DNA of 64,000 nucleotides, taken from positions 434,001 through 498,000 of the forward strand of contig JAGPNK010000019.1 in NCBI GenBank assembly GCA_020746835.1, given 5' to 3'. The stretch comes from Stachybotrys elegans. Its lineage: Eukaryota > Ascomycota > Sordariomycetes > Hypocreales > Stachybotryaceae. The position numbers and the translations under genes were made by a program. The notes below the pieces were generated by a model. That model was given only the letters and a program-made list of their open reading frames with translations. It was not told where the DNA came from and did no database searches. This document shows positions 331 to 36,915 of this stretch, piece after piece; the first letter of the stretch is position 1, and every line of letters starts with the position of its first letter.

Positions 331-465
331 TACCCTTGAGTTATGTAGGAGTTCCCGTTCATATGCCCAATGGAATACAGACCAGCGACTTTGAGGAGGC
401 TCCCTCTAACGATAAAGATAGTGTCAAATCAATAGATGACACTTGGCAAAATACGCTTGAGTTAT
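331..465 (+). repeat. Introner-like element copy A with 14 bp direct repeats
   Basis: Element body 345-451, flanked by TACCCTTGAGTTAT (331-344) and TACGCTTGAGTTAT (452-465), a 14 bp direct repeat with one mismatch. The body matches the other copies through the core CCCGTTCATATGCCCAATGG and runs to a 3' section ending near AATAGATGACACTTGG. It contains a branch-site-like CTAAC (about 406-410). GT begins at 345 and an AG lies at 466-467, so a 123-nt GT-AG interval is present. No intact host gene is recognisable here. Confidence 0.75.
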
Positions 466-508
466 AGTCAATCTTGATATCGATTTTTCTCGGCCCAAAA
501 TCGGTCGA

Positions 509-609
509 TGTGGGATTTCCCGTTCGTGTGCCCCAATGGGATACAGACCAGTGACTTCGAGGAGGCCCCCTCTGACGATAAATACAGTATCAAATCAATA
601 GATGACACT
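509..609 (+). repeat. Introner-like element copy B
   Basis: Full-length copy starting TGTGGGATTTCCCGTTCG and ending AATAGATGACACTA. Its first ~70 bp are almost identical to the copy inside the HET gene near 35.9 kb. I see no convincing flanking direct repeat, so the insertion may be older or rearranged. It contains CTGAC like the other copies. Confidence 0.75.
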
Positions 610-1151
610 ACACGACCCAGGGTGATCATGACGGACAACACGGAAGCCTTTGGTAACTATCTCTCCTTGGAGATACTCGATGCAGAGAGTATGGGCTATC
701 CGAGCCATGAAGGTTTAACACCGACGGTACTGAATGATGCCATGAGCTTTCCCGAGAAGATACAAAGCCCTCTCGTCCGAATGTTGGTGGGAATATGCAG
801 TGCTTCATCCATGTTGCTCTGCGTGCAGTTGTGGGCTTCTTTAGTGACCCCGATGTTCTTTTTAACCACCGGCTGCAAAGCTGTCCCGGAATGGTTTTAT
901 GCTATCGAGGCACAGAGAACCAAATCATGGCCTTACGATACTTAAAGGTGCCATATGCTCAAGCTCTGGGAGAACCATTACGCCTAGCAGGAATCTCAAC
1001 GGATGGATATATGTGGATGCACCATCAGGAGGGTAACCTGCTAACCCCCTGGACCGTAAGAGGTCTCAAGCTGTCAGGGTCATCCTGGGCTATCTTCTAC
1101 GAATCCAAATACCACAAGCTTAAGAAGCTTCAGGCTTGGGAAGAAACTTAA

Positions 1152-2850
1152 CATGTTGACACAAGTTTGGGTTAGGGATTCCGAGTCGGGTATGCCTAAG
1201 ATGTCGTTCCCAAACTTTCTGATCATATGTAGTATCGAGCGGCTACTTACCATCCATACTAATGCAAGCTATATAAGATGACGGCTGGACACGTTAAAAG
1301 CTTTTTACCCATCCTGGAAGGGTCTCAAGATCAACTTTATGAGATGTCTCTCGGGCCGCCTATCCCAGTCCAGTACATCGTAGCAGGAACGGTCCGGATT
1401 TCACAGATCTTTCCCCTTGAGGATATCCGCCTGATGAAATATTGAGACTTCCAAAATTTCACCAGAATTGCAGGATGCTTAAGGAATCAAGCCAGAATGG
1501 GATTTACAAATATTATATAATATTAGCCAAGTGAGAAAGAGACTGGCTCCAGCCAGAAGCCCTATTGGAGACCAAAAAGACTAGAAGAGACATGGCGGAT
1601 ACTCCCTCCTGCCTTGGGCGTCATAGGTTGGCAAGAAGCTTTGTTGGTAGTAGGTGCAAACTAAGGTTGAACTGAATTAACTTATGCCTACGGCTGAATG
1701 ACCGTGCTTTAAATAAGTGGTATCTTCCGTGCAGAAGGTCACCACTCAACACTTTCTACGATTACTTCAGACAAATTACTGCCGATGTCTTATTGAGTAC
1801 TGTCTCAGAGTCCGGATAGCGTTTTTTATCTACCCCTGCCCCGAAAGCGACACGATCTCGAAATGAAAGTTCATTTTGGACACAACGTTGATGAGCCTTG
1901 AAATATTTCACAGCATGGTGCCACGTCACCAGGGTGCCGTGCATGCTGCTCCAGGATGGCCGCTAATGGATATGGTACGTGTCCAGGTCAATAATATTTT
2001 AATTTATGCTTTGACGTGTCTTCTCGTTTTTGGGCGGATCAATTATGCTTCACGTACCTGCGCAAAACGCAGGGGTTTCCTCAGCGCTGCTAGCGACGTC
2101 TTGATGAGTATTCGAGGTATCAAGAAATGACATTATCTCTACTAAGGGTAGATTACGGCGTACTTTCCGGCCTCCAGTATTAGGCGCGATGTCTTCCACG
2201 AAGCCTTTTCGGGAGGCGTTTGCTTCCACGGTGTCTACAATGAGCCAACCGCGGCCAAGCGAAAGCCAAAAGGTTGGACATGTGCATGATGAGGACCACG
2301 GATCCTAAGATTATCACCGAGTTTCTCATCTCTGTTCTCGCGCACTTGGACATCCACGACTTCTCAAATTTGGAATACTTGAGACAAGGTGTTTTACCAC
2401 AGCAGCCTTTGCCTGTCTGGTTATATGCGTTGCTTTGCATTTGGCGTTCTTATGTGTCAATACAAACCGTCCAGGAAGCCTCAGTATTCGCCATGGGACG
2501 CATCGACGCATCACTACGAATTCGAGTGACCTACTCATGGCCATGAACGCCAAAATACGCCAGCGGCTGTTAAAGCTTGGCAGTGTATACAACAGTTTGC
2601 ACGAGGCGTGTTAGGCGGAATAGAACGTATCCTAGAGGGCATATGGCATCGGATCCAGCAGTTGGATTCGCAGTCTTCCTCTATCTGATTTGAGGGAACG
2701 AGATTTTCGCAAGGACACTCTGGGTTGGATGCCGGTGTTGGTGATTTTGCCCATCTTCCGAGACGACTCAACCAAAATTTGTTTCATTTCAAGCCTTCCT
2801 ACACTCTAAAAAAGTACAATGCCAATTTACTACGTTCAATTACAGAAGCA
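1152..2850. other. No gene recognised
   Basis: Mixed-composition sequence with only short overlapping open frames on both strands and no recognisable domain, tRNA or repeat. A few AT-rich runs (for example 1500-1530) do not reach the level of the RIP blocks. Confidence 0.4.
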
Positions 2851-2913
2851 TCAGGGGCCCCTCAAAGTTGCTGGTCTACATCCCATTGGGGCACACAAAC
2901 AGGAAATCCCACA
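2850..2913 (-). repeat. Introner-like element copy C, truncated
   Basis: The reverse complement begins TGTGGGATTTCCTGTTTG and keeps the CCCCAATGGGAT core and the GACCAGCAACTTTGAG section. It then diverges where other copies continue into the GCCCCCTCTGACGAT part. No flanking direct repeat was found. Confidence 0.7.
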
Positions 2914-3479
2914 TTCTTCTAAGTGCAATCAGGTTAAGTCAGACGAATACTGGCGCGAAAGTCACCACAAGAGGCAATGCACCAAGTGCGGCTACATTCG
3001 AAAGGCCATGGACCTTACCATATACACGAGTTGCCTTTGCCCTCCACCCTTGATGCATACTCAACAGTCTTTCCGCCGCTCTTCAGACACTGGCATGAGA
3101 ACCGCTTCCTGTAGTCCCATGTGCTAGGATGCACGTTTGGATCGTGCAACGCTCTCTGGGGCCAGTATAGCCTTCCAACCTACGCCGGTCTGTCGTTGTA
3201 CTTTACCCCTTCCACAAACCGGAACATGGTGTCACGCATCGCGATGCTAAAAGGTGGGAATGGTCGCGGAGGATGTCTCCAAATTGCCCTGCGTCACCGC
3301 CACTACAATAGCCGAATTAGGTCTTTCGTGGGCAGTCTTGACCAGAGCGACAAAATTGAGGAGAGATGCACGTACAAGCTCTGAAGTGCCCTGCAAAGGT
3401 TCTTGTGGACCATTACCTAGTACGGTGATAACAAGCTGGTTGTCATGCCCTTGGGACATGCCCCGATCCCCTGACTTGA

Positions 3480-4003
3480 TTCCACTTGACAATTGCATAT
3501 AGTGGCAGAATATTCTCGTCAGTCACAGCCTCCTTCGACAAACTTGAATACTTCCTCCAGTGTCCTATTAGGCAGGACCCTTAACTTATCTATTGGCCTG
3601 ATATTGTCTGTTAGAGGGGTCTCGTTGAAGTCGTTACCCTGTATCCCATTGGGGCACACGAACAGGAAATCCCATATCAGGCAGGACCTAATATTCTCCG
3701 AGAGCCACGTGGTCATTAAGACAACAGAATGCTTCATGCTCTTTTTAATGGATTGAACGGACTCTGACAAGCGAGTCATATCCTTTAACAGAGAAAACAC
3801 ACTGGTGAGAAGTGTCTGGAATTAAGCCCACCAGACTCAGCAGCATGGATTTGCTGAGATCTCTGCGGGAGGCAGAGAGAGCAGACCTGAGGGACCGAGT
3901 CCTAACGAACGCCCTGATATGCGGCTTGTCCTTCTGTCTCGACTCTTTAACCCTTATGCGTACACCAGAAGAGTTCTACGTTTGTTGCAATGCTCTGTTC
4001 TAA
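3480..4003 (-). pseudogene. Unrecognised decayed coding stretch hosting copy D
   Basis: The minus strand from 3800 to about 3690 has a protein-like frame, and a related frame resumes past the inserted element to about 3519. I do not recognise the family, and a start, an end and introns cannot be placed. The short plus-strand frame at 3812-4003 is the other possible reading. The repeat insertion and short frames suggest a broken gene. Confidence 0.25.
3566..3688 (-). repeat. Introner-like element copy D with 14 bp direct repeats
   Basis: Minus-strand insertion flanked by TATTAGGCAGGACC (3566-3579) and TATCAGGCAGGACC (3675-3688), a 14 bp direct repeat with one mismatch. The 95 bp body reads TGGGATTTCCTGTTCGTG at its 5' end and contains CTAAC. 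Removing one repeat plus the body deletes 109 bp. On the minus strand the left junction reads TTAG|GTCC, a possible proto-splice site, but the donor GTCCTG is poor. Confidence 0.75.
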
Positions 4004-4141
4004 AACAGGAAATGCAGAGGTCCTAAACGACGTGGATATCTGACTCTGCTGTTAGGGTCTGCCTGGAACTTGCTAGGTCCTTGCAGACAGAAGCATCAGC
4101 CATATATAGCATTGCCTAAGACAGTACATCTACTTTAGCCT

Positions 4142-4972
4142 ATTAAAGGCTATCCTTCCCTACTTATTAGACTAGTATTTTTTCTTTTAGATAATCTCTT
4201 TAATACTCTAGAGTACTTTATTAATACTCTTCCTTTTTATTTTAATTTCTTTATTTTTAGGCTTTAATTAAGTCTCTATCTATTTATTATTTAAGTTAAT
4301 TATTTATTATATATAGCTTATTACTATAGATAGCTTTTTCTAATAGATAGAGTTAGTAATATTTAGCTTATAGAATAATTAAGGGCTTAGCTAAGGGCTT
4401 TTTACTTTATAGCTAGACTTAACTATATTATTAGGCTTTATAATAGACTTAGTATTATATATTTAGTAAATATAGAAGAGTAAATATTATAGTTAATTAT
4501 AAGATTGTTCTAGCTTAAAGAAAGAAATAGAGAGTATATTTTATAAATATTAAGGCTTTAATAGATTAGTAGAAAACCTAATAACTTTTAATAAAGTTTT
4601 CTTTTATAGTAGTAACTTTAATTTAGTTATTTACTAAAGCTATAAAGCTAGTAGTAAATTAAATTACTAAAAGCTATTTTATAATTATTAAAAACCTTAA
4701 TATTATATTATTAATAGTAGCCTTAATTAAGCCCCTTAGAATAAACTATCTTATATATTATAATAGGCCTAACTATATTACTTACTAAAGCTATATTATA
4801 AAAGCCTTTTTATATATTTAGATATTTAATACTATAGTAATATCTTCTAGGCAATTATAGTAGCTAGAAAATTTTAATATCTACTATAGCTATAAGCTTT
4901 TCTTAATTAAATTTTTTAACTAATTATTATCTATTAATCTAATATTATCTTTATTATTAAAGAGAGCCTTCT
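4142..4972. repeat. RIP-saturated AT-rich block
   Basis: About 830 bp made almost entirely of A/T plus G or C in contexts RIP does not hit (CT, CC, GG, AG). Reading through it I find only about one CpA, one TpG and no CpG. Such dinucleotide loss, with TpA enrichment, is the known product of repeat-induced point mutation. The original repeat is not recognisable. The right edge is abrupt and lies inside introner-like copy F. Confidence 0.85.
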
Positions 4973-5023
4973 CAAAGTCACTGGTCTATATCCCATTGGG
5001 GCATATAAATAGGAAATCCCACA
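4915..5023 (-). repeat. Introner-like element copy F, half RIP-mutated
   Basis: The reverse complement starts TGTGGGATTTCCTATTTATA, keeps the CCCCAATGGGATATAGACCA core, and continues through a 3' half matching copy A but with nearly every C turned to T (section around 4915-4972). The 5' half still holds CA and TG dinucleotides. The element thus straddles the edge of the RIP block. Confidence 0.7.
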
Positions 5024-5039
5024 TATAGCATTATCCAGG

Positions 5040-7391
5040 GGCAATGGCCAGCTTACAAGACGGGAATCGACAGTTTATGAGAATTGGTTGACAAACAAGC
5101 CACACCGAGAGGGCTAAAGAGTATCTTGTCCATTTACACCTCTAATGGCGAAGTGCGCGTTAACGGAGTTCCGTTGAGTCGGCTACCCACTATATACGAG
5201 TCATTATATGTTCCGTGATTTTCAGACATACCACCATCGAGGTTGTACCGGGAATGCAATTCACAGAAAGTTGCCGGATTTACCTTGTATTTTGGAACTT
5301 CTGACGCATCGGAGCTTCTCATCCAAGCCCAAGACGGCAGAATCGCGCGTATGAGCTCGTACTTCGTGGTTGGGTCAAAGGATGTGTCCCCGTTGACTCA
5401 TCAAGAATTATGTCCACTGTCTCGACGTGGAGAGTGACTCGGTAGCTTCTGTCGAGACGAAAGCCCTGGGAGCTATCCGCGGCATCTGGATCCGAGAGGG
5501 TTAAACTTTGAGGTTCTGGTGTTTACATGGCAACAAACTACGCCTGGTCGATGTCCGAAGAGGCACAGCACAGACTTTTGGTATGATACTGAGGTCGCTT
5601 GAGGACCCATTTCATATTCAGTACAGCCTCGACTCACATACCGGTCTAGTTGAAATCGAGCTTGGCTTCTATGTTGCGGGAAACGACAGCCGAGTTTACT
5701 CCAGACAATATCGCAATAGATCAGGGACCCGGTGCCTTGGTCAGCCTTTCCAGCAGGCTCATTATTCGAACAGAAGTAACTCATCTCGAAAATTGCTGAT
5801 GCATAACATTTTCCTATGGCATGTCTCATGGCCATCAGCATACTTGTCAAGAAAGTTCAGCGATCAAGGTGTACCAACAGTGTGGACGAGGGCCAGTTAT
5901 CCGGATTATGGATATGCTATCTGCATGCCTTGCATCCCAGAACATCTCACCGGTACTCTTCTATTTAGTCAAACTTCTTTGGGAGATGTCCACTGTTATT
6001 GCTTGAGGCTATTCTTATTGGCCTATTCACCTGTTTACTGTTCCAAGAAATAAGTAATTACATTTTGCCACATATCAGCGCCAGCAGGCTGTGGCTACGC
6101 CACCTGCATAATGCGGCAGCCAGCGCCTGACCCAGCTTGCGAGGCAGATAATGATGCCCCTTTTACTATGGGCTGATGCGGTGTCTTCCTTGTTTAAGCC
6201 TACTTCGCTGTACCCCAATCGACCATACGCTGCCTCGTCGATTCAGACCGTGATGGCTGCTGAGCCTACTGGTCCGATGCCTCAAAAGCAATATATACGG
6301 TGTGCCTCGCGGCACCTGCTGGTCTAATGGCCATATGTGAGAAGAACGCCATGGCTTACAGTGGAGTAAGAGTCACTGAATCAGTTGTGATAAAACGGAG
6401 TTATTTGCCGTTGACCACTGTCAGCAATTATTTTTCTAAAGCTACGAAGCTCTGACCTTTTGCGTTGTGAGGAATCCCTTATGACTTGATGAAAATGAGA
6501 ACACTTTGTAAGGCTATGGCTAACGGCCTTTTGCTTGATACTAATGTTACCCTGCATGTCCGCCCTCGCGAGGAATGTCTCATTCAAGAGACAAGTTTTC
6601 ACAAAGATATCCCTATCGTGGAACGCAGGAGTGCCTAGAACTGATATATTTTTGAAATGATGTCCCCGAGAGCATTCGGGCACCACACCAGCTGTGCTGT
6701 TCGTGGGATATACGGGACCTCTGCTGACACACAGCATGCGTGCCAAGCATGTGGGCACCCAGCCCTCCCCCCCGCCGGACTGGAGACATTGCCGATGGGA
6801 ATAACCGCCCTCCTTTCCGTTGCAGCCAAAGGACTCTGGGCGGCAAGCAAGCTGAGCTGTCGTCGCAGCCACTCAGATCTGGTTCCTGCTCCAAAAGCAC
6901 ATGCGGAGAGACTGATTCTTGGTGCGGCTGGCTGGCTGAGAGGACCCCTGAAAGCGCCTGAGCCTCCAGAACAAAAATTGACAATCAGCTGCACAGGGTC
7001 CAACCCCTAGCTTCAGCTGGGCTCTTCCCTTGCACTGCTTCCCGTTTTCGAACCGGGGGCGTGGTCTCGAAGCACCTTGGGTGAGCCGTGTCCAGATTCA
7101 GGATAGCCTGATAGACTATTGCCTCTGCAGTCTGACCACGCGTCGGATGCACTTAGACAATACTCTCTGGAATTGAAGGGGGACGGACGGGACCTCGGGA
7201 GTTCCCGCACGGGGACGCCATTCTATTGGGATCAGGTCCAATACATATATACTCTGGGTCCTGCTTTGGTCTGGTGCTGCCGTCGTGAACCCTCCATGGT
7301 CTAAGTTCGCTCCCGAATATTGGTCGTCCCCAACGTTCCTCATCGTTGTTGTTGCTGTTGCCGCGCAAGAGTTGCGGCCGAGTATCACGCC
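5040..7391. other. No confident gene
   Basis: Several open frames overlap on both strands (plus 5243-5437, plus 5508-6053, minus 5473-5850, and a cluster at 6613-7010 open on both strands), but none shows a known domain or intron logic. From about 7240 there is a TATA-like ATATATA, then the upstream region of the large gene that follows. I treat the frames as chance or remnants. Confidence 0.35.
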
Positions 7392-10300
7392 ATGGCCAAC
7401 GCCGGCTGGGAAGACACGTACCTGGATGGATCGAACCATATCACCGCCTACGCGGACGGCCGCACGATCCGGGTCCGTCGCCTTCTCGCCCTCAGCCACT
7501 TCCAGCCACTCGGCCAGTACGACGAAGCCTGGGCGATGACATGGAACACCTACCTGCAAGGCGAGGATTATGTCCCGATTGGCGCACAAGTGTGGCAGTC
7601 ACTGGGCTTTCCCGCCGTCGAGGTTTGGCTCCCATTCGGCTTTGCAGCGCACTTGCTGTCCAACCAGTACAACTATGATCACACACCTTGGCTAGCCCTT
7701 CCGCAGGATCCGAACATAAGGAGCTACGTTCTCTTTGGCAGAACTGCCCAGGGCATAGCCCAGGAGATCGCCTCGACCCGGAAAGACCTCGATCTCGCAG
7801 CCGCCCTCGACGGCCTTGCCACTGCCCTTGATCGGGAGCTGTGTGGCTGGTTCCAGTTCACAAACGGGATTGGCAACTTCCGGACCATCGACACCAAGGA
7901 CCTGACGTTGCTCATCGAGCCCGTCGAGGACGGCACGAATGGCGTCTCCTTTGCCTTGGTCCGTCATGCTTTCGAGCAGGTCTACGCGGCGATCAAGCCC
8001 AAGACCAACTATATATTTGAGCGGCAGCAGGACTGTCATTATACACAAGTAAGGGAGGGACCAGTCGATTTCCTCCACGACGACGCCTGCTTGCTCTGCC
8101 GGACTGTCCGTCCCGTCCACATGCTAACATCGCTTGGTAGCTCTACATGAACCCGTTCTACCACTATCAGACGTCTATCCCGACGGCCGATATTTCCAAA
8201 TTCATCGGCAATGATCGGGGGCATCCGACCGCGACAGAGATGAGGCAAGAGCAGTTTGCTAAGTGGGCCGAGGACTGCTTCAAGTACGCCAAGGAGAATA
8301 ATCTGGGCTCAGTCGGCGCGTTCATGATGGAGAAGTCTCCCGAGTTCCTGGCCTGGATCAGGTACCGATGGACGTCCCAGGCCCCGATCAACTGTGACAA
8401 CATGGAGGCCGCGATCGGGACACGCTCGCAACAGGCCACCCAGAAGGTTGTCATGGGAGGCGTGTCGGCGAGCGACGTGAGTCTACCGCTTTCTAATGTC
8501 TTTCTGGATACTATGAAAATTTTGCCGGAGGCTTCCTGATTCGTCATGCTGATGTACTGGTCATCGCTAGGTGGCGTTCGAGTGCAAGGGGCCTTGGTTT
8601 TGGGACGCCAAGCCACGACCTGAATTTGCCATTAGTCCCGCAGAAGTAGGTCTCGCCCTATGAAGGCCTATGAATATTTCTCGCGCCTAACAAGTTGAAC
8701 TGCAACAGTGGCTCCATGTTATCGCATACTCCTTCGGGGGTCTGTCCGACAATGGAAACCCTGCGGATAGTCAGCTGGCTGAAAACATGATTTTCGGCTC
8801 GGCCGAGTGCAACTCGCACATGTTCAGGTAAGCAGCGTGTCTTTATCGACGGCTCACGGTTGAACTTGGAGCTGACCGAGGTGGCTGCCTCACCAGATAC
8901 GAAAAGGGTTGGCAGATGCTTCTGACGTACGAAAAGATACTGCGAGAGCTCGTCGACGACCAGACGGTGACCAAGGGCACGATCGACATCCGACGCAATG
9001 GCAAGAACAAGCAGGTCCGGTCTCTGTTCTCACCGTGGTGGACCATCACCGGCAACATCGAGGTGGACGGGCGCGAGAAGATGGCGCACAAGTACCCCTG
9101 GCTGTGCTACGTGATGGAGTACACGGTCCGGCTGGAGGGATACTGTCGGCTCTTCCGCTCGGACAACGTCATGCAGGCCACCGAATTCTTCCCTTTCAGC
9201 CGGCACTGCACGACCCGGACCGAGAGCGTCGTCGACAACTACCTGCTCGACGGACTCTTCTACAAGGAAAAGTCTCTGGCCGAGCACAACCGTCGCATGG
9301 CGGCCCAGCAGGCAGCCCTGAACACCGTGGTCTTTGGCAACGCCCTGGGCACATCCTTTGATGCTATCGTGTCCGGGCCGCCACAGTTCTCGCTCGAGAT
9401 GCACACGGCTTCGCTTGTTGCCGACGGGGCTGACAGCCTCGAGGCAGAACCGGAGCCGGTATTGGGTGCAATCAACGGCACATCTGGTAATCCAGAAGCT
9501 GCAGCAGCAAATGGTCTCAAACGTCGGTTCACTGCCGACGAGGAGGAGGACGCGGCCGCGAGCCGTCCGGCCAAGATGGCACACAACCCAGACAACCCCG
9601 TCACCACGATCCGGTCCCTAGAGGCCGGGCTGGTGGCCTCGGCCGACTTTGACCGGCTCGAGGCGTCTGACCTGCTGCTCGACCTGGCGGCGGCTGTGTC
9701 GGCTCCTGCACTGTCTCCCGCGTATGAGATTGCGCTCGACCAGGTCAACGGCATCGCTGCGAGGGAGAGCACGCCAGCAGAGTTGGCCATGCTGTTTGAC
9801 AGCGGCGTTGCGACCACGCACGCGCCAGAGCTGCGGATGAGCGCATCGTACAACAGCATCGCTCCAGCTCCGGCTCTCGAGCCCCTGAGCCCGGCGGTGC
9901 AGCCTGTCCGGCCACCCGTGCTTGTCGGTGGCGCTGAGGTCACCAACGTGGCCCTGGTCCTCACCGCGGCCGACAACAGCACCAGAGAGCTGCCCGTCGC
10001 CGTCGCGGCGCTGTCGGTTGATGAAAGTCAGGGTGGTCTGCTCCTCGTACCGACCAACGCCCTCGAGGTCCCGCAGCCTCCGATCCTCCTGCTTCCCTCT
10101 GCTGCTGTGGCCGAGCCTGTCGCAGGGAGCGAGATTGCCAGCGCTCCGGCTGGGCTTGCGACGATTTCCGAAGTCAAGACCCTGGCCCGCGAGACATTCA
10201 ATGCGACCACCAGCACGGTCAACCTCGATGCCTTTGCCTACACTGCCGACATCACCTCGCTCTTTGGTGTGCCCGGGCTGGCAGGCAAGCTGTCAGTCTT

Positions 10301-17568: not shown

Positions 17569-20500
17569 CTATAGCATTGAGCGATCCTCCATTTCCACAT
17601 CGGGATGAAACGTCCTCCTTCTCACAGCTGGACCGAATACTGCATCAATCCCGCCTTCCTGCTCTAGTCGACTACAAATCTGACGAAAGGTTGTGAAGTT
17701 TGGCCGTGCCTCTAGTATCCCATAGAAGCATCTGACTGGCCGATCAAGTGCATTAGCAACCGTTTGTCCGGAAAAGGAGTCTGCACCATGACATGCAAAG
17801 AGTGTGAAGCGCTGACCAGCAGCACGCTGTATATGACTCCCATGTGTCGCCACGGCGTCCTGTATGTTTGCCAACGCAAGAGGAGTGTTGGCCTCCGCAG
17901 GAGATAGACCTTTCCGACCTAGTAATATGCCTTCCGGGCTACCATGTGTTATAAATGCCTCACTTCCTTGTCTACCTCCTAGGCCCGTAAGGTACGCCAT
18001 CTCATTACCCCGAGCTTCGTTAAGGATATGAAAGTCGAAGCGCAGCAAGCGACGGGCTGACTGATGTACTGCGGGTGTAATGGTGAATGAGCCAGCTCGG
18101 CCCAGCGCTTTCTGTATGCCCCTTGCCGCGACCTTTGCACCTTTCGCCAGGAGTCTACCGCCGACCTCACCGATCGCTCCGTTCAGCGCATCGGTTCCCA
18201 CGCTTTTCCAGGTCGGCGTTTTCCCACTCGCCAAGTCATACACGGCCCCTGTGGCCACATCTGACGCGGCACCAGCTACAATGGCCACCCCGGCCGCGAT
18301 CGCCAAACTCGCGCCGCCGGTGAGCACCGCCGACGCAATGCCGACCCCAATACCAACTGCCATGACGGTCAGATCTCTCACGGTGAACTCCATGCGGAAG
18401 ATGCTGAACCTGCCACTTGGATCGACGCGGTTGACCGGGTCGCCTAAGCAGTAGGTGTAGGGGTTGATTTCCCCGGATGTAAAGGGACTCAATGTGTCCG
18501 GGGTATGAAAGCGCATCAGGACCGGGTTGTAGACGCGGTAGCCGTTACCGAGATGATACCAACCGGTGACCGGATCTCGCCATTGCCCATTGAAGCCGAT
18601 TGAGGAAGAGCCTCCTGCGCTAAAGCCATACGGCGTGTACGTTTGATTGTGGATGGCGTGGTCCGGCTGTTGAGTATTGAGGTACGCCAAAATCAATTAA
18701 TGGCTGTCTGACGCCCAGAGTTGGGTTTGAGCCGTGTCCATCCTGCTGCACGGTTTGGCCCCAGTATACTTTTCCATCGGATACATAACTGACCCGACGA
18801 TTGCCCATGGTGACTGCAATGAGTGCATTGCCTCGGTAGTGGAGATGTTGATCCGGCTGTCCGGGCACCATCTGACAAACCAGCCTGCCGGAGGCATCGT
18901 AGCGGTACTGGCTTAGGATCTGGCGGTTGGAGTCGCGGACAGTGCTCAGGCAATTCCTCGTGTCGTATTCCAGTATGCGGCCTTGCTCGTCCCGGGTCAA
19001 ACAACCGTTTTCATCGTACTCGAGGTTGATCTCTGAAGGGTATTCTGGGTGTGTGTTGGTGATCTGAGTGACTTGAGTACGGTCTTCCGCGAAACAAGAA
19101 TAGCATGCAATATTTTCAGCCCCATCCCGGAAGGTGGTTGAAACCTGAACAAGATTGTCATAATCATCAAAGCTGAAATCCGAAGGTGGTTTCCGTTTTC
19201 GTCAGCCGGCGGTCGAGCACCCTCACATTGATAGCGAATCAATCGGTTAGAGAGATCGTATTGAAAGTTCTCATGTCGTAACAGATTGCCATTACCATCT
19301 TCCAGATGGCGCTCAGTGACAAGACCTGTTTCGCTGTAGTTCTGGCCCAACCGGTACAGCATTTCTTCCCCTCTGTAGACGGTGCGTTCGATTTCCCGAC
19401 CAAAATCATCGTAGCTTAGGCGAGTGGTTAAGCTGGCGTTGTTTTCTTTTTCCTGCACGCGGCTCTCGGCCACGCGGTTTGCCTGGCCATACACAATTGT
19501 GACCTTCAAATCCCCTTGTGACAAATATTCGGGTCTGCCAAGAGAGTCATAGTGGATGTTGTGCGCCTGTCCGTGTACGTCCGTGTAGTATTGTAGCTTG
19601 CCGGCCATGGAATAGGTGGACTTTGCAGAAAACGCTGTATCCTCGTTGATCTGAATCCTTTCCTGCGCCAATAACCCAGAAGGCAGATACTGTAGATCCG
19701 TTGTACTCCAGGAGCCCGTCAGGCGTACCGGAGCCGCGGTCTGGGGATCGTACTGATAGGTGTCCGTATGATCGCCGCTCCTCCGACTCGTGAGCACATG
19801 GCCTAGGCCGCGCTCGTATTCGAGGTCGTGTCGGTCTCCTCTGGACGCCGTTATCTGAGCGGGTTTAGGCGTACTTGCTTGATGGGATAGAGTCGTCGTC
19901 CGCGCGCCGACTTTCCTGCCTGTAACACGGCCCAATCCATCAAAAGATTGCTCACCCAGAATGTAGCCATTAAGCGTGATTGACACGGGCAAAGCACCGG
20001 CGCTCTGGGATGTATACTGGGTACCCAAAATGCGGTTGTGAGAGGTGGTTTGAGTAATGCGGTCGAAGCAATCAAATCCGTACTGTGTGCTGTGACCTGA
20101 ATGATCTTTCTGTTCGACCCGGCGGCCCAGGCCATCATAGCTATACTCGACCACACTATAGCACGTGCCATCACTCTTGAATAGCGCCGTGCGTGTAGGA
20201 GCACCGTGAAGATTGAATTGAATCTTCGTTTGACCTTCGCCTTCAATGCCTTCCGTGCGTGTTAAAGAAATTGGATCTGTGAGTGAGGTAACCACACCAC
20301 TGCTGTCGGCGACTCTGCAGACGTGACCCCAATCATCATATTTCAAGCGTCGGATTTTTCGTTCTTCGGTCGGCTCTCCGTTCGTTCTCAGCCAGTCAAT
20401 GTCAACCACTTCAGTGCATTGATTCAGAGTGTTATAGCTGCGTTCCTGGACTCCACAGAAAGGTTCTTGGACTCCGTTGGTCATCACCATCCTCCTTCTC

Positions 20501-21110
20501 AACCCGGCGTACTCAATCTAAGCCGTCAGTGATGTAGTTTGTTCGCACACCCTTGGCATTGGTAACCGTCACACAGTATCATGCCTAAAGGCACTGTACT
20601 GGTGCCGCCGCACTGCTTCGTGAGGCGTGTCTGGAGCAACTACCGCTTTGACTAGTCGGCCGAGTCGATCGTACTCGAAGCGGTCTTCAACGCCTTCGTG
20701 ATCCTTATGGGTGAGGGTCAACCCGGAACACAGGGAATAAACCGTTTCCTCTTGAACAGTATAGCCATCGAAGCTTGTAACTGTGGTGGTTTCCGTCAAC
20801 TGCCCAGGGTTTGGGTATTGATAGGTCCAGCTGCGTGTTGTGGGATATCGTTCAAATATACGCGTGATTTGTTGCTGCAGGCGGCCGTGATTCACTCCGG
20901 CGGGCTCATCCACATAAGTATATTCTGCTCTGGAGAGATGCTGATTTCCCTCTAGGATGAGCTGTTGCCGGGTGGCAATGAAATACAGCGCACATGCGCC
21001 CCTGGCCGTGGGCAATTGACAGTATGTATAGCGCTCGCTCCGGGTGGGTGTTGGATAATTGCTCGCAGCTGGCGTGACGGTCTGTCGTAGGAGAACGGTA
21101 CTTTGGATGG
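17569..21110 (-). pseudogene. Broken RHS/Tc-toxin C-subunit-like gene
   Basis: Read on the minus strand in four pieces: 21110-20569, 20502-~19195, ~19195-~18700 and ~18696-17569. The first three carry many YD/RHS repeats (YDSLGR, YDDFGR, YDASGRLV). The last begins with the RHS-associated core (GFNGQWRDPVTGWYHLGNGY, then DPVNRVDPSG), closely resembling bacterial TccC proteins. It is followed by a variable C-terminal domain with two Gly/Ala-rich hydrophobic segments and a module with FITHGSP and LFACHGA, which could be a His/Cys pair. Breaks: frame changes near 20540 and 19195, a further frame change upstream of 18720, and an in-frame TAA at about 18695 where homologues keep coding. The N-terminus is missing. 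Tc C subunits are cleaved inside the RHS shell and deliver the C-terminal toxin; this copy looks dead. It is a candidate for ancient bacterial transfer. Confidence 0.85.
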
Positions 21111-22734: not shown

Positions 22735-22740
22735 GTATAG

Positions 22741-23831: not shown

Positions 23832-23990
23832 ATCGTGCTTATCAGTGGCGCTAAGGTTGCCAATGTAGCCGACAACAGTACCAGAGAGCTGCCTGTCGCC
23901 GTCGCAGCGCCATTAGTTAATAAAAGCCAGGGTAGTCTGCTCCTTGTGCCAACCAACGCCCTCGAGGTCCCGCAGCCTAATCACTCTCGA
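23832..23990 (+). pseudogene. Duplicated fragment of the 2135-residue gene
   Basis: About 150 bp match 9919-10080 in the linker of the large gene: shared GACAACAG.ACCAGAGAGCTG, CCAACGCCCTCGAGGTCCCG and intervening sequence. The copy has an 18 bp in-frame deletion, and many differences are transitions. It sits in an open frame (23733-24074) whose flanks do not match the source gene. Confidence 0.8.
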
Positions 23991-24079
23991 GCCCCGTATG
24001 CGACCAACCTGTGTCTGCATTGTGGCCTGTCAGATTGGCGGCAATGCCTAACGTGGTTAATGGCACACTTCTAACCATT

Positions 24080-24792
24080 GGCCATATCCACTTCATGGCA
24101 TGCTTACATTCAGCTTGTCACAGCCTCTTCATCGGATCAAAATGGTTTAGCTAACTAGATTTCATGTTGCTGCCTAGCCGAAACAACCAATAACAAAATT
24201 GCCGCATCCGATATAAGACAGAACATTAACGGGGCTGAGGCTAAAGTTCCTGTCGTTCAATGCTCCCTGATCGATAGCAGCCATGGTTGGAGCTCTGCAG
24301 CCATTCTAATCCTCTCTCTTACCCCTCTCCCTCCCCCCTCGGCGTATTCTACTGCAGCTGAAAGCTGAATTGTTAAGCCATTCTGGGAAATGATACTCCA
24401 GAAGTAGGAGTAGGTGCGTTTATATGTATATAATACGAATTGTGTGCTCAAATCGCGGGAGCAGTGACAAGTACTGCTACACGAAGCTGACAAATGTTCT
24501 GCTGAAAAACAATATTAACAGCCTCATTACCTGTCAGCCTCGTACCCTGATTTGTTGGCGAGACGTCAGGTGTGTGGGTTATATTCCTTGGCATGTAATG
24601 ACTCATGTACGTAGAAATTACCTCACGGCAATGATGACATATATCTGGATTTTCATCCGTTCGGATGCATCTTTTGACTGACATCGCCGCAAAATTTAAT
24701 CAATAGTTGCATGCAAGGCTGAGAATAGCCTCGAATTTCACGGAAGACAACTCAGGCTAAAACCCGGCACATCAAACAGAGCAATTTCGGAT
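24080..24792. other. Intergenic upstream region
   Basis: No supported gene. The short frames around 24424-24684 are open on both strands and have no recognisable content. The 3' end is the probable promoter of the CorA-like gene. Confidence 0.45.
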
Positions 24793-26500: not shown

Positions 26501-26903
26501 GGTCTAGAAGCGGCTGGCCGAAACTATCAAAATCTTGCTTCCAGTCAAGGCAAGCGTCGGAGTCCTGCCAAATTATCTCGTTGGGTTTATCCCAAGGCAC
26601 ATCTTTATTGATGCATAGCCAGTAAGTGCGCCTAGACCTAGTTAGATGTCTCTCTACTGAATAGATGGCTAATTAATGAGCGCTTATAGCCAGTAAATGC
26701 GGACGGACCCTATGGGCACGATGTTTCTCTTGGCACGGAGCTTCTGCTTCCGAAGGACGAGATGGTCTCCTATGTTATCAGGTCGGGTTGTTGGTATAGC
26801 TGCTTGTGCTCCGTTCACTTCTCGGAGTGGGGGGTTCTTATGGCCTTCATCGATCTTGTCTACGTCGCTCATTTCGTCCCGATTGAAGGTGCTCGAGGAC
26901 TAA
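26490..26903 (-). pseudogene. Unrecognised minus-strand coding stretch split by a 71 bp insertion
   Basis: The minus strand carries two protein-like frames, 26872-26684 and about 26620-26490, meeting at SVRIYWL and YWLCINKDVPWDKP. If one copy of a 16 bp direct repeat and the sequence between are ignored, the frame runs straight through. Family unknown. The 3' part overlaps the end of the CorA-like gene on the other strand. Confidence 0.35.
26615..26701 (+). repeat. 71 bp insertion with 16 bp direct repeats
   Basis: ATAGCCAGTAAGTGCG (26615-26630) and ATAGCCAGTAAATGCG (26686-26701) flank the insert, differing at one base. On the plus strand the interval has a strong donor GTAAGT (from 26622), a CTAAT, and an acceptor TTATAG (ends 26689). 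It is unrelated in sequence to the ~105 bp element. Confidence 0.6.
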
Positions 26904-27112
26904 TGCATTAGGATTCGCCTATATGACCTTTGGACTACTTTAGGTTCGATCTGTCAAGACAGAAACATCTCTTAAGTGGCTTGGCCGTTGTTAAGTCTAA
27001 GAATACATGTGACCGGCAAAGGAGAGAATATCTGCATCTGGAAGTGGTTCATCACCTCTATGCGTGCATACCATCGATGAGAGAAAATCGCTAGACATAA
27101 CGAACGTCTTCA

Positions 27113-29465: not shown

Positions 29466-29980
29466 GCCACTCTTCTCTGTTCATAGGCACAACTGTCCAG
29501 CAGGGTCGGAGAGACGGTCGAACTTTGCTGCATGACGACGCAGAATAAGTACAAGTACCATTGGCATTTAAGGGACATGATTTAGTCCAGCCCGGAGCCT
29601 AATAGAGAGGGCCGTCATGAATGGCTGCCGGCATCTGCAGCTGAGGGAATATTTGTGACGAGTAAGAGCTGTGTAATACGCCAGCATTGAACGTGGGATA
29701 TCATGAATGGTCGTCGCCAGTGCCTGCCATGAGAAGCAATGATTGATTGGCAGCGTAGCCTTGCGGAAGGTATGTCGGTATGTATGCTAGGGCGCGATAT
29801 GCATGCAGCTCCTCGGGCCGCGTGTTTGCCACCTTTCCCTTAATACTGATCAATACTCCAAAGAGCCTCCGTCAGTGCAAATACCCAGACGAGCTGTTTA
29901 CTTACCTACCTACCTACTGTTCCTCAGCTGAGCGGCAGCAACCACATCTCGCGCAGCACAGCTACTCTGTTGGCAGCCAA

Positions 29981-32900
29981 ATGGATTTTTCCGTCATGAA
30001 AAAAATTTCCCGCAACGCCAAGATGCCCCCCAAGGCTGGACCCACGGGCAAGGGGATGCCGCCGGGAGATGAGAAGAAGGGGCTCCGGGAGGAAGGCGAG
30101 GCTAAGGGAAAGGGCGAGGAGGAAGGCGCGCAGGACTTGTTCGTGCTGACAAAAACGCTGATGGACGAGCTGCAGCGAATCCAAGCCAGGCTTGCCAGGG
30201 AGGAGACGTCCAAGGACGACATCGACTTTGAAAAGCTGGAGAGGGACTGGACCCGCACGCTTGAACATGTCGGCCCCAGAGAAGAGAGAGAGATGTGGGA
30301 GCGGTATTGGAGGGCGCGAGTCTTATCCCTCAGAGAGAAGACATTGGGCCAATCCCAGGGGCAGAGGTGGATGCACCAGCTGGGCAACGATTATCAACAA
30401 CAGCTGGAAAAGGAACGACTCTTTCACGCGCGCGTCAACGCCATTCGTCGCGAGTGGGAGGAGGAACACGGATATGAGCCGACGCGCACGGGCGACCATC
30501 TCGATAGCGACGATTTGTGGGAAGCGTCACTACCGGGTATAGGTTTAAGGTTCTCTGGCCTGAGCGAGTTGCGCCGTCCTTTTCTTCCGGCCATTCAGTC
30601 CACCTTGCAGCAGCCGCTGGAGCAACTACTTGACTTTGACCAGGTCATAATGAGCCGGTGGGATATAGAGGAGCAGATAGAAAGGGGAGTATGATGCCAA
30701 GAGGGAGATGGTGAGGTCTCAGCACAGATTGATTGATGTCGAGGCCGAGTCGGCACACAAGAGGATCGAGGCCGAAGTCGAACTAATGGCGGTGAAGATG
30801 AGGGAGACCAGATCGCGCCTCCGTCACAGAAGGTCACCATCGCCCGTAGTAGAGCGGCCCAGCTCCGCCAAGTCTGAAACAGCCGGACAGCAGCCGGAGC
30901 CGGGTGGCACGGACGAACCGGAGCAACAACAACCGATGGAGCCACAGCCAAAATACGCCAAGGCAAGCTTGAGGCAAGAAGAGTGGGCGACGTTCCGGGC
31001 CCTCGCCCGCCAAGAAGAACGTGAGGCCGTGGCCATCGACGTGCTCCTGGGCGAGCCTGCGCTGTCGTACGAAGACACGTATGCGATGGTCTTCGGCCCT
31101 CGCCACCACCGGCTGCCGAAAGACGCAAAGCCTGCCGCCGCGAAACCACCTACCTCCAAATCCGACCACGACTTGCTGCCGGAGCGCATTCGCATCCACT
31201 CGTCACAGCTATTGTCCATTTTGAAAGACCTACGCCCCGATGGCGATGACAGGACCCTCAGCAGCGCCCCCGCCGTCTTTGTCAGGCCTTTCAAGATGTT
31301 TTCGTACTATGAACAAGCGCTCCGAGACCGGTGTGATCAGTTGGCCAAGGGTATGGCGGTGCCGGCGGCAGCAGCAACGGCAGACGGCTCGCGCGACAGC
31401 GGACAGCCGGAGCCGCCGGCAAAAAGCGGAGGCCCCGATGATGCCATGGCTTTGGACCATCTTCGCTGTCTGCTGGAATTCATGGACAAGTACGTGGCAA
31501 AGAAGCTGGCCCACCTCAACAGTCGGGATTGCGTCAAGATTGCGTTCCCCGACGTCTGGCACCTCTTCCGGCCCGGCATCCACGTCGTCGGTGCCGACGG
31601 AAAGCAGGCCTATCGAGTCATCAGCGTTACCAGCGTCGGCCACAAGGTCATCCCCCCTTTCCGCAACTACCGCGATAAGGATGCCGCAAAGTCCGAAGAG
31701 ACGCCAATCACCATTGTATGCTCTTACATTGACTTTGACGGCAAACGGCTGGGCCCGGTCGCCGAGACCTTCGTCATCAAACGCTTCGACGGCCAGCGTC
31801 CCGTCGTGACACTGCCCGTCTTTCCGCTCCGATTTCATCCTTTGGATAGGGCTGTCGACGAACCGAAAATCGGCATGGGCGGTATCGACGGCGGCGGCGA
31901 CGGCGACAAGAGCTTAAGTGCAAAGGCTGGCCTACTACCGCCGGGGAAAAGGCTCATGGACATGCTCGTGGCCCGGGGGAAAAAGTTCGTCGACGTGGCT
32001 ACCTTCAAGAACCTCTCTTACACAGGCAAGCACATGTACTACTCCGGGCTGACGCTTGAGACCAAAGACGATGTCGAGAGCGAGGTGGTTGTCGACTTCG
32101 AGACAGCCCTGAGCATCAAAGATCACAAGGACAAGGGCTGGGCACCCAAGATCGAGTCCATCCTCGCCCTGCCCGCCAATGACGAGCACAAGACGCATCC
32201 CTGTGATGCCGACTGCTGCAAGTTCGACATGGTCCACGACGACTCGTATGTGGAGGAGCTCCGGAACTCGGACTACATTCGAGACCTCATGCCTACCACG
32301 CGCGACAAACAGATCACCGTGGCCATTGAGCCCCGGGAACTGACTGACGATATATTTACGCCAGACGAACTAGCCATCATGTCGAGCCGCGTCTTTGCTT
32401 ATATTCTTCGTTCGAGGAAATGGGGTGAGCAACCGCCTCCCATGATTAACCACAATCTATTTGTGCTGACTTCTTTTTTATTTTCCAGCGAAACTCGACC
32501 TGGACTACTTGAAAGGAGCGAAGGAGCGAAATACTGGCCTTGGTGTTGACCTTGCAGACAACTCTGGCCGAGCCGTGACTGAGGTGGCGGGACATGAAGA
32601 GCAACTTGAATCAAATAATGCGTTTGACCGGCTTGTCCTTCCTTCTGGACACAAAAAGGTGGTCTTCTCGCTTGTTGCCCAGCACTTCCGAAGCAAAGCC
32701 ATGGGCAGTGAAAGGGGCGAAGAGGTCGACGTTGTTCGAGGAAAAGGTAAGTAGAACGTTGAAAAATTGTTACAATGTATCGCGGCAACAGTCGCTGACG
32801 TTGATGGGGTATCTAGGCAAGGGTCTCATCATCCTGCTCCACGGCGCACCCGGAGTCGGCAAGACGAGTACAGCAGAGGGCGTAGCGGAAAAGTTCAAGA

Positions 32901-33997
32901 AGCCCTTGTTTCAAATCACCTGCGGTAAGCTTTCCCTTGAATGCTCATCCACTGAAACTCGGCTGTGAGTGGTGTATGTGTTGCTAACGCACTTACGTTC
33001 AGGCGATCTTGGGACGACAGCACAGTCGGTTGAAGATGCATTGGACAAGAATTTCACCCTGGCCAATCGCTGGGACTGTGTCCTCCTCCTCGACGAAGCT
33101 GACGTCTTTTTGGCCGCGCGAACCAAGGAGGACTTTCTGCGAAACGGCATGGTTGCAGGTGCGTCAGACGTCTCCTGACTATAAAACATATTAACATTTC
33201 TAGTGTTTCTACGCATGTTGGAGTACTATGCCGGGATTCTCTTCTTGACCACCAACCGTATCGGTGACTTTGACGAGGCCTTTGCCTCGCGTATCCACCT
33301 TAGTCTGCACTATCCCCCTCTCAACCAGAAAAACACAACCCGTGTGGTCGATCTCAACCTCGGTATGATTGATAAGCGCTTCAAGACCCAAGGACGCCTC
33401 ATCGACATTGAGACCAAGCCCATCCTGGCCTTTGCAGAGCGCTACTGGGAAGCATACGAGAAGGCGAGGTGGAACGGTCGGCAGATTCGCAACGCATGCC
33501 TCACCGCCTTGGCGCTATCCGAGAACGAATTTGAGGAGGCACGCCTCAAGGGCCAGGGCCCGGAAAGGGTCCTCCTCCGCCTGTCCCACTTCAAAATCGT
33601 TGCTAAGGCGTACCTCCGATTCACCAAATACCTCAAGGCGATTTACGGCAGCGATGAAGACGTCCGTGCCAGCGAATGGGGTCTGCGGGCTCTCGAGCAG
33701 GCATTTAAGAAAGCCAAGGTCACCGGAGCTGGAGCTGGGGGTGCTACTGGTGAAGTTGGCAGTACTGGCGGAATTTCGGACATGGAGCTTGAAGACCCCG
33801 AGGAGGAATACAGTGATCACGGAGAAGGGGAAGAAGAGAGTTGGCTAGACGAGGATGAGGAGCCCAAAAAGGCTAAGAAGGCGGCTCGCAGTGGTGGGAA
33901 GCAAAAGACCAAAAAGGCGGCGGCGGGTGTGAAACCACGCCTAAATGAACTTCGAAAGTTGGAGGCAAAGAAGAACAGGCAAAGGGGGGGGCATTAA
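29981..33997 (+). CDS. AAA+ ATPase, fungal long type, with one frameshift
   Basis: Exons: 29981-32424 (with a break), 32489-32746, 32817-32924, 33003-33158, 33204-33997; introns GT-AG and in phase. Walker A GAPGVGKT lies at 32843-32866 and Walker B VLLLDEADV at about 33080-33106. FLTTNR and ASRIHLSLHYP follow as sensor and second-region motifs. The long N-terminal half has charged helical segments (30000-31000) and a region of the fungal DUF7025 kind before the AAA module (DVWHLFRPG, YRVISVTSVGHKV). The C-terminus is a Lys/Glu-rich tail. The reading frame breaks at a GGGG run (30684-30687): a frame ending at 30694 and one from about 30690 would join if one G were absent. This may be a sequencing error or a real lesion. 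Function of this family is unknown; the divergent NACHT-like neighbour suggests a shared signalling role (inference). Confidence 0.78.
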
Positions 33998-33999
33998 TA

Positions 34000-34750
34000 G
34001 GTAAAGAAAGCTTGTTTTTCATTTGTTTGTAGATGAAATAGGTCGAAATCGGAGTTGCTCGGTGTGGTCGGAGTGTTAGCGCAGGATTTTTGCGTCCAAT
34101 TTACCGGCGGTGGTTTCGGCTGTGCCGATGAAGTGGGGCCGGATATAACGTTGAAGCCGGTCGGCCGGAGATGGCAGAATCCAAGAGCGATGTCCAGCGC
34201 CCACAGCCCCGAATGTAAGAGCCATCCTGAGGGCGTGCACTGCACAGCTATTCTTATAGCCAACAGCAACACAGTCCTGCAACCCCGCTCCCAACTGGTC
34301 AAGGGTTATCAAGGGCTGGTCAGGCTCCGCGTACATGTCTGGAACGCTAGGCATTCAAATAGTTTTGAGAGTAAAGAGCACAGTCCGATTTAGGATGCAA
34401 GGCTTAGAAGCTCTAGCAAGGCGATATGAACTTGGGATGGTTTAGAAAAGCTATGCCAAACATGAATTCTACCTTGGTCAATCTTGCACTTTACCATAGC
34501 TTGATATTTATATAGCCTTGTTGCTGAGCTGTAGAGCGGATCAGCCTCGAATCTGAATGACATTCATTAGTCGTCAAGCTGCAATGCAACGTTGCCTTGG
34601 CCAGACACCGAGCTGAATGTGCTGGCTTATCTCAAACTGTGAAATGAAATCATGGAGATAAACACCAATACCACCAGACTCTCGCGAACCACTCTCTGCC
34701 GACGAACTTTCCCTCCAACAAAACTTTATAAATAAGCCTCAAACATAGAC
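34000..34750. other. Intergenic, promoter of HET relic
   Basis: No supported gene. Plus 34055-34393 and minus 34354-34076 are open but unrecognised. TATAAATA at 34727-34734 lies 21 nt before the ATG at 34755, unusually close for a fungal TATA box. Confidence 0.45.
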
Positions 34751-34754
34751 GAAC

Positions 34755-36915
34755 ATGGCTTCCAGCTCCAAAGCCGTTGAAATATCAGCCGAGGGAGCAG
34801 CAGCCGTCCTTTACTCCCAAATTTCATCCTTCCAGACCCGGATCATTCGTCTTCTCAGGAGTGACGACTCTCCAGAATCTCCAATCAAATGCACCCTTCA
34901 CACAGCGACCATCCTCCATCCCAGCTTTGAAAGCTGACTTGCAATCCAATCGCTATCTGACACAGATCCTCAATCATCTCTGTCCTGCGGGCCAGAAGCG
35001 ATAAATTACAATGCTCTCTCCTATGCTTGGGGTCAAGATCACGCATCAGCGCAAATATATATTAACGGTGTGGCCTTTCCGGTCCGGCAAAACTTGTATG
35101 AAGCCTTGATTGAATTGCGCCGCTCTCAAAAGTCAACCCAGTTCATATGGATTGACGCGATCTGCATCAATCAGCTGGATAATAAAGAGAAGGCCATACA
35201 AGTGCAGAACATGTACCTCATCTACAAGGGCGTTGATCGTGTCATTGCCTGACTTGGACCTGATCATCCAGGAATCAAAGATGTCTTGAACATGAGCTCC
35301 TCAATTGATTCCAAAGCCCACCGCCGCCTCGGCATAAGAGGGAACTATCCACCGAATACCATCATAATACAGAGGAGATTCCTCCGGAAATCTTCTGGGA
35401 CATCTGTTTTGGGCTGTCATACCTTTATACAAGGCCATGGTTCGAGAGGCTATGGGTGCAGCAGGAGATCTTTGCAGCAAGGGAACTTGTGATGCAATGC
35501 GGAAGCCATCAATTTCGATGGACGTCAACTATATCGCAACTGACCAAACTTCCGGGGAAACCCCCGAAAAGCAAGTCGAGTTGGCTACTTTGGCGAAAGA
35601 AAGAGATTAAAGGTTCCCAACAGCTCGACCAGGAGCAAATTTTATCAGGGTTGGAGAAGCACGCAGCGCGGCAACTGAAATGGTTCGTTCTACTCAACGA
35701 TCGCTTTACGGAGAACTTCAACGTGCCCTTGAACGCGAAAGCATTGGCACAGTCCAACTACAACAGCCTTCGAACAGCTCGTCAGTTGGATTTTGTCGAT
35801 CTCCTGCTCCAAACGCATCATCTACAGGCGAGTAACCCTCGTGACTACATCTACGGCATCATAGGTATGTGGGATTTCCCGTTCGTGTGCCCCAATGGGA
35901 TACAGACCAGTGACTTCGAGGAGGCCCCCTCTGACGACAGTATCATAGGTATGACTGGGTTTCCGGCAAAAGCTATGTCGATAGCTGACTGGTTGGTCGC
36001 GAGGAAATCTGGAGACCTGTTCATTCCAATCGACTATGAGGCCGATATCAGGTCCGTGCTTTGTGCCGTGAGCTGGGTCTTGCTTATGATGGGTGGTCTT
36101 ACGATACTTGCAAAGTTCAAAGTGCATGGACCTCGCGACGCAGCCAGTTGCGAAGACTTACCGTCTTGGGTTATTGATTGGAAGCTGACAGGACCTTCAT
36201 TCCGCCAAGGCAACACAGAATGGTCATGGCAGCTTCCGGTGGAATTGGGCAATGCTTGGGATGTCCGAGACTTTGGAACAGATCCGAGGTTCAAGAGACG
36301 GAACATGATTCCCAAGCTTGTCCCTCGTTCACATAAGGAAATGGTGGAACACAATCGGATGTTCACTATTTCCTGTGACAGATTGCTAGTGCACGGAGCA
36401 ATCTTTCCCCAGTACTATGTGAAGAATAACCAAGTTTTTGAGAAGAGAGCCATTCTAGACAAACCACTATGGCCTTTATTTCCGATGCGCTTGATACAGA
36501 TATCGTTGTCTGGTTTCCAGCCTTTGAAGTAGGTGGTGGCATGGTTGGACACCCTGAAAATACCCGATCAGGATGCTTTGAGCAGACTTCACCTTCGAAC
36601 GGTGGTCTTTGGCTCTTGCGGCCTGTGGGAAATGGTGAATTTTCCTTGGTTGCCTGCCTCCCATGGCTTACTGAGCTGGGCTCAGCATGGTTCCTTTATG
36701 AACAGTGGTTATATCAAAGCTTGGATCTTGCTGATTCAGACGACAGTGCGCGTGGTCGTCTGACAAAATTCAACTACAAAAGGCTGACAACCTTTGGGCC
36801 ATACAAGGACGTCGTTGAAGGTTCCAAATCATCCCCAATGCATGACCAGAAACAGCGTGATAAGCTCCAGCGGGAACTATATGTACTTGTCAAGTATTTC
36901 GCTCCTCCCAGTTAA
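34755..36915 (+). pseudogene. HET-domain pseudogene carrying an introner-like element
   Basis: The order of HET blocks is clear: YNALSYAWGQ (about 35010), FIWIDAICINQLDNKEKAIQ, YKGVDRVIA, and later RPWFERLWVQQEIFAARELV. Lesions: a stop after the first 60 codons (34935-34937, possibly an intron edge); TGA at 35250-35252 where HET proteins have Trp (VIAWLG); and a frame change between about 35270 and 35390. Downstream the frame from 35456 contains the 84 bp element at 35865-35948, which reads through without a stop, and shifts again near 36470-36530 into the frame ending at 36915. The domain triggers incompatibility cell death in intact relatives. It looks non-functional. Confidence 0.8.
35858..35953 (+). 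repeat. Introner-like element copy E inside HET coding sequence
   Basis: The direct repeat ATCATAGGTATG occurs at 35858-35869 and 35942-35953 with 72 bp between. The target contains AG|GT, so the unit 35865-35948 starts GTATGT and ends CATAG. A branch site CTGAC (35931-35935) lies 14 nt from the AG. Removing these 84 bp leaves the joined codons G-I-I-G-M-T-G with no scar. Because 84 is divisible by three and the insert has no stop, retention would add 28 residues. Confidence 0.85.

Follow-up and report, generated by a model that had tools for sequence, protein, structure and literature searches.

Repeats of Stachybotrys elegans as probable retrocopies of a spliced, apparently noncoding RNA whose intron-dense gene lies beside a reverse transcriptase gene

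The 64,000-nucleotide stretch of Stachybotrys elegans DNA considered here (the window, C11:434001-498000 of an analysed genome of 43.4 Mb in 61 contigs) contains six copies of a dispersed repeat, which a preliminary description of the same DNA had taken for a mobile element of ~105 bp behaving like an introner. The best explanation overall, and a probable one, is that these repeats are retrocopies of a spliced and alternatively spliced, apparently noncoding RNA, and that the gene of this RNA forms a cassette with a neighboring reverse transcriptase (RT) gene. The derivation of the repeats from copied, spliced RNA is almost certain when judged from the comparison of the copies with one intron-bearing locus elsewhere in the genome.

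This locus, the source gene, came to light when the 5' portions of the longest copies were used as queries, and is located at C3:635172-637476 on the minus strand. The sequence of one copy (L039) is split here into 17 blocks, separated by gaps of ~43-164 bp, and the predicted C3 source transcript has at least 17 short introns and a length of ~1 kb after splicing. When the copies are compared with the source, the best split is GT/GC-AG in 196 of 235 distinct junction contexts, compared with 1.9% for tie-matched random splits, and the supported junctions map to 18 donor positions or close donor pairs. Fungal spliceosomal introns have the motifs GTAYGT, CTGAC/CTAAC and YAG, and the introns of the C3 source look like introns of this kind. 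The copies also differ in how they are spliced, with alternative donors at 7306/7313, 7406/7410 and 7560/7564 (reverse coordinates of L072, the region of the C3 source), with alternative NAG acceptors, and with an exon between 7488 and 7616 that is skipped in the copies L006, L008 and L010. A 661-bp query from the source gives 108 matches among 36 scored candidates, and the only full intron-bearing place is the C3 source, the other matches being mostly pieces that end at exon borders. Retained intron sequence is seen at three places (C1, C12 and C27), as would be expected from partly spliced RNA. It is because of these junctions, alternative sites, exon-border pieces and retained introns that C3 is regarded as a many-intron source gene and the repeats as copies of its spliced RNA.

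The opposite history would make the C3 locus the derived one, in which an intronless element has gained introns, the intronless repeats being the older state. In its favor, the C3 introns are short and closely packed, which would suit a burst of intron gain, but this history is exceedingly improbable, as the copies differ from each other in which of the shared alternative donors and acceptors they use and in the exons they skip, some copies keep single retained introns as splicing leaves them, and two further loci, described below, behave alike with sequences of their own.

The long copies share no long reading frame when their translations are compared by eye, and the source RNA is apparently noncoding. 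No family was found by the Rfam scan of the window (gathering score) and of L072 (E up to 1), and a tRNA scan of the source regions L072-L076 was likewise empty. The copies at C24, C60 and C26 start within ~12 nt of one another, and a TATA box (TATATAAA) sits ~40-55 bp upstream of the copied start in the C3 source, suggesting that the transcript starts near TATATAAA. A 9-bp duplication flanks the copy at C24; the other two are without a clear one. It was also seen, by eye, that the neighboring exons at 7025-7214 (L072 reverse) resemble repeats of one unit (GACTGC.TCACTCGCC.AAGCC.CATCGTA.GT), which might mean that the C3 noncoding gene was enlarged by duplication of exon-intron units.

The anatomy of the copies is that of retroposons. 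In the retroposon orientation, which is the strand opposite to the one of the preliminary description, the copies share one 3' end (..GGGAAATCCCAC), and their 5' ends vary from copy to copy. For 57 distinct 3' ends, taken from loci that were retrieved either as top matches or because of a long 5' part (a nonrandom sample that leans toward young and long copies), the flanks were searched for a clear duplication, defined as a direct repeat of 11-17 bp with a score of at least 11, with the best of five shuffles as control. Such a duplication is present at 26 of the 57 ends, bounding copies of 97-939 bp, and at 0/57 in the shuffles. In the pre-insertion targets of these 26 copies, position 1 of the duplication is A in 23 and position 2 is T in 24, and the dinucleotide after CCCAC is AT in 51 of the 57 3' ends. 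A poly(A) tail was not found in the bounded copies, in which the duplication directly follows CCCAC(A). Target-primed reverse transcription by long interspersed nuclear elements (LINEs) leaves copies that agree at the 3' end, are shortened at the 5' end and are flanked by duplications of such length. Because these marks occur together here, with duplications of 11-17 bp, the family copies are assigned, from their sequences, as products of LINE-type target-primed retroposition. A DNA transposon or miniature inverted-repeat transposable element, with terminal inverted repeats and two fixed ends, was also considered and rejected, since just the 3' end is fixed and the 5' ends vary, giving copies of 97-939 bp.

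A genome-wide search, as the preliminary description had proposed, was run with the 42-nt end of the repeat and gives 331 matches with at most three mismatches (173 forward and 158 reverse; 0 for a control with the reversed pattern). All six copies are present in the window at the positions described earlier, and their full extent in this first family is as follows.

345..451, minus strand: family-1 retrocopy of 107 nt, 5'-truncated; duplication 331-344 and 452-465, 14 bp with 1 mismatch
510..609, minus strand: family-1 retrocopy with its 3' end at 510; no duplication found
2850..2912, plus strand: family-1 retrocopy, a short 3' piece; no duplication found
3580..3674, plus strand: family-1 retrocopy of 95 nt; duplication 3566-3579 and 3675-3688, 14 bp with 1 mismatch
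4114..5019, plus strand: family-1 retrocopy of 906 nt, AT-rich; 13-bp duplication with 1 mismatch
35870..35941, minus strand: family-1 retrocopy of 72 nt inside a HET-like frame; exact 12-bp duplication, 35858-35869 and 35942-35953

The mobility that had been deduced from target duplications of 12-14 bp is borne out by duplications at four of the six window copies, none being found for the copies at 509-609 and 2850-2913. The length of ~105 bp was mistaken for a unit length, as the 5' cut points vary and the full sequence is ~1.0 kb. In the same way, the element listed at 4915-5023 does exist, but it is the 3' end of the 906-nt copy and not a whole copy. This 906-nt copy aligns along its whole length with long copies elsewhere in the genome, and relative to four of these, C>T or G>A changes account for 69-93% of the mismatches, so that its base changes are RIP-like, as repeat-induced point mutation (RIP) would give.

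The copy at 35870-35941 is the one that brings the family close to introns, and its surroundings comprise two further features.

35456..36532, plus strand: HET-like reading frame carrying the in-frame insertion
35865..35948, plus strand: possible intron of 84 nt (GTATGT..CTGAC..ATAG), a candidate whose excision restores the empty site

The insertion is antisense to the HET-like gene, with AG|GT within its duplication and GTATGT at the border. The 28 residues of the insert are missing in four of four homologues (35-43% identical), and the frame stays open through the insert as well as after the predicted excision. The AG|GT edges and the 84-bp length given for this copy in the preliminary description agree with these positions, and the copy could be a precise 84-nt intron. 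It is much less easy to extend this to the family. The border that such an excision needs, AG|GTATGTGGGATTTCC, is exact at five places in the genome; these places with the border AGGTATGTGGGATTTCC are the HET copy, C4, C20, C23 and C60. At C4, no long frame crosses the empty site, the one there having 91 amino acids; at C20, there is no frame above ~80 amino acids across the empty site, and at C23 and C60, there is no clear duplication within the 701 bases fetched. The empty site falls within an open frame of at least 150 amino acids for eight of the 26 copies with a clear duplication, compared with 120 of 300 random positions, and there is thus no enrichment of insertions in reading frames.

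Introner-like elements, for which van der Burgt 2012 and Torriani 2011 are said to be the founding papers in fungi, were therefore rejected as the class of this family, as the copies are mostly not at intron-type borders, although the HET copy fits. The explanation of the repeats as multiplying introns can point to this copy, with its precise 84 nt and its empty site in all four homologues; set against the variable 5' truncation, the spliced-RNA origin, the rarity of the required border and the absent open-frame enrichment, it is highly improbable. The expectation that copies would lie at introns could be satisfied by the HET copy, whose site is empty in the homologues, and fails for the family, whose members are better described as 5'-truncated retrocopies of a spliced noncoding RNA.

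Upstream of the C3 source, on the same strand, there is a gene with an endonuclease domain (PF14529) and an RT domain (PF00078), which ends 0.9 kb before the copied part. In a protein search, the closest relatives of this RT in the genome are the RTs at C14 (41% identical) and C23 (40%), which have long open frames of 1236 and 1093 amino acids, respectively; each of the three genes is single copy, with nothing closer than 41%. Behind the C14 and C23 RT genes, there are again intron-dense regions, and the strand and order are the same in all three cases. The strict intron motifs in the noncoding regions number 11/1 (sense/antisense) at C3, 18/3 at C23 and 23/4 at C14, compared with 30/24 in the 64-kb window, with 2/2 (C23) and 1/1 (C14) beyond the 3' ends, and with 0, 0 and 0 sense and 1, 0 and 0 antisense motifs within the three RT coding parts. 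Two ordinary LINE frames (C22 and C37) served as controls: over 2.5 kb close to the end of each, the motif counts are 0/1, with no intron density. In a tree of 27 proteins, the C3, C14 and C23 RTs group with five database proteins, one of them named as coming from a Trichoderma, with support of 100/99; the closest database RTs among the matches listed are 31-40% identical. By eye, a CTAAC..AG stretch was noticed just ahead of the first endonuclease residues in L072 and L078, and the RT genes at these loci may hold an intron before the endonuclease start. Upstream of the C3 RT frame, at ~236-291 of L072 reverse, lies a short 3' fragment of the repeat family, which matches at 87.8% over 41 bp.

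The C14 and C23 noncoding regions have spliced copies of their own. For the C23 family, 12 of 17 junctions are GT/GC-AG, and a copy in L048 is flanked by the duplication ATATTTCTGCAACAT, read by eye; for the C14 family, the query gives 48 matches among 24 scored candidates, self included, many of which share query end points and some of which cross introns. With at most three mismatches, the genome has 57 C23 and 76 C14 3' ends, sources included, the control being 0. The window contains two matches to the second (C23) noncoding source.

57320..57749, minus strand: spliced retrocopy of the C23 noncoding source
49502..49556, minus strand: match to the C23 noncoding source, 55 bp, 82%

By eye, the last exons of C23 and C14 share a similar opening stretch, CTGACGAT..CC.TC.TTG, and the two sources close with ..ATCAT, hinting at a common descent of these two noncoding genes. 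At one locus, L048 (around C60:1072701-1072859), the three families (C3, C14 and C23) are represented together.

It is possible to read the RT gene and the noncoding region as one LINE with an intron-bearing 3' untranslated part, the copies being 5'-truncated spliced LINE RNA. The conserved strand and order in the three cases are in agreement with such an element, as is the finding that the intron motifs begin only 189 bp (C23) and 346 bp (C14) past the RT stop. The C3 locus speaks differently: the gap between the RT frame and the noncoding unit has 0 intron motifs, the 1,116 bp that precede the copied part, spanning the end of the RT frame and the gap, matched only themselves when used as a query (repeat counts by this search can be incomplete), no copy of an RT frame closer than 41% was found, and the three C3-family copies with almost identical starts begin just below the TATA box, two without a clear duplication and one with 9 bp. 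After these searches with the C3 gap stretch and the RT protein, the reading as one LINE is disfavored and unlikely. A LINE that copies its own RT frame was rejected for the same reason, the RT frames and the stretch across the C3 frame end and gap being single copy.

The alternative that is preferred here is a cassette. In this genome, all members of the RT clade (3/3) are linked to an intron-dense noncoding unit with spliced copies, and the RT gene and its noncoding neighbor together give the impression of a repeated, stationary unit. Because this linkage occurs in all three members and is absent at both LINE stretches that were compared, the linked RTs are taken to be, with fair likelihood, the copying enzymes. 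The spliced origin, the single intron-bearing source, the truncation, the duplications and the threefold linkage can be read from the sequence, and for the promoter, the RNA 3' end, the AT priming and the copying by the linked RT, we infer the following scheme. The C3 noncoding gene would be transcribed from near the TATA box, and the spliceosome would strip at least 17 short introns from the transcript, leaving an RNA of ~1 kb with the fixed 3' end ..GGGAAATCCCAC(AU). A LINE-type endonuclease/RT would then nick DNA at N|AT, and the RNA 3' end would be used for priming via a short AT match. Reverse transcription of variable length, followed by joining, would leave the duplications of 11-17 bp. 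The likeliest source of the enzyme would be the single-copy endonuclease-RT gene 0.9 kb upstream of the C3 source, or its kin.

Several observations weigh against this cassette scheme. With regard to the copies, 39 of the 235 C3 junctions fit no GT/GC-AG split, 31 of the 57 3' ends are without a clear duplication, and the C14-family junctions (4/5 GT/GC-AG) all come from the single copy in L048. With regard to the enzyme, an in-frame TGA interrupts the C3 gene between its endonuclease and RT domains (L072 6031-6033, minus strand), so that the enzyme partner of the most numerous family appears to be defective at present, and the C23 ATG frame starts within the endonuclease domain (PF03372 matched from position 125). 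The intron motifs near the RT stops make a separate transcript start at C23 and C14 less secure. With regard to the recognition of the RNA by an RT, the three 3' ends differ and the last exons of C3, C14 and C23 fold no better than shuffles, for which reason no 3' stem-loop is claimed. Finally, further LINE and RT genes with long open frames are present in the genome and are a possible source of the enzyme. These LINE-type genes, together with the stop in the C3 RT frame, would suit an explanation in which a host noncoding RNA is mobilized by an unrelated active LINE and the adjacency of the RT is due to chance or a by-product. The layout recurs at every member of the RT clade found here (C3, C14 and C23) and is absent from the two other LINE stretches tested, which makes this explanation quite unlikely.

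The repeats can be compared with several known systems. Processed pseudogenes are retrocopies of spliced RNA made by LINE enzymes, with introns removed, 5' truncation and duplications, and the repeats described here likewise lack the source introns at exact splice sites (196/235), are 5'-truncated and have duplications. They differ from processed pseudogenes in having no poly(A) tail and a fixed 3' end of their own, and also in the hundreds of copies that come from one noncoding gene, in the capture of alternative isoforms and in the RT gene beside the source. The endonuclease and RT domains, as well as the 5'-truncated copies with duplications, are shared with fungal LINEs, which we take to be of the Tad1/jockey type; unlike in these LINEs, it is the downstream noncoding unit that gets copied, and the three RT genes have no other copy above 41%. 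Short interspersed nuclear elements (SINEs) are described, in a report on Aspergillus fumigatus, as RNA polymerase III (Pol III) transcripts derived from tRNA or 5S rRNA, and the AfuSINE families of this fungus include AfuSINE2 with duplications of 4-14 bp (PMC5063351). Relative to this account, the present repeats are also noncoding and short, with LINE-type duplications (11-17 bp), and they would likewise depend on an enzyme encoded elsewhere. Their source is different, being a many-intron gene with a TATA box, with no tRNA and no Rfam family detected in the scanned regions; a SINE-type head (tRNA, 5S, 7SL or a Pol III promoter) was not detected in these tRNA and Rfam scans. Fungal introner-like elements are described as canonical introns that are seamlessly placed in exons and have internal symmetry (PMC8469720). 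Relative to this account, the likeness is that of short repeated elements, one copy of which could be an intron, and the differences are the duplications, the variable truncation and the mostly missing splice border.

A search of open-license papers found neither a retroposed family from a spliced noncoding RNA in fungi nor an RT gene linked to such a source, which is weak evidence for novelty. It is tentatively proposed, as something short of an even prospect, that this is a new retro-system, in which a nonmobile RT has a dedicated, hyper-intronic noncoding template that is spliced before copying, in which the cassette is old and repeated (three divergent pairs in one fungus, and related RTs among database proteins), and in which antisense copies on AGGT can become introns. 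If the model is true, a noncoding gene with at least 17 introns that feeds hundreds of spliced copies is a natural archive of alternative splicing, and if the cassette reading is true, the genome records splice isoforms. Should copying be done by the linked RT, its gene is stationary and the noncoding template alone spreads, whereas in LINE/SINE pairs the enzyme gene is mobile. The HET copy is a concrete case of a retroposed RNA fragment that could make a precise intron. The C3 locus also makes it possible to test why a retroposed RNA should be so rich in introns.

Elsewhere in the window, two frames at 17569-20502 on the minus strand resemble an RHS/YD-repeat protein, an impression gained by reading only.

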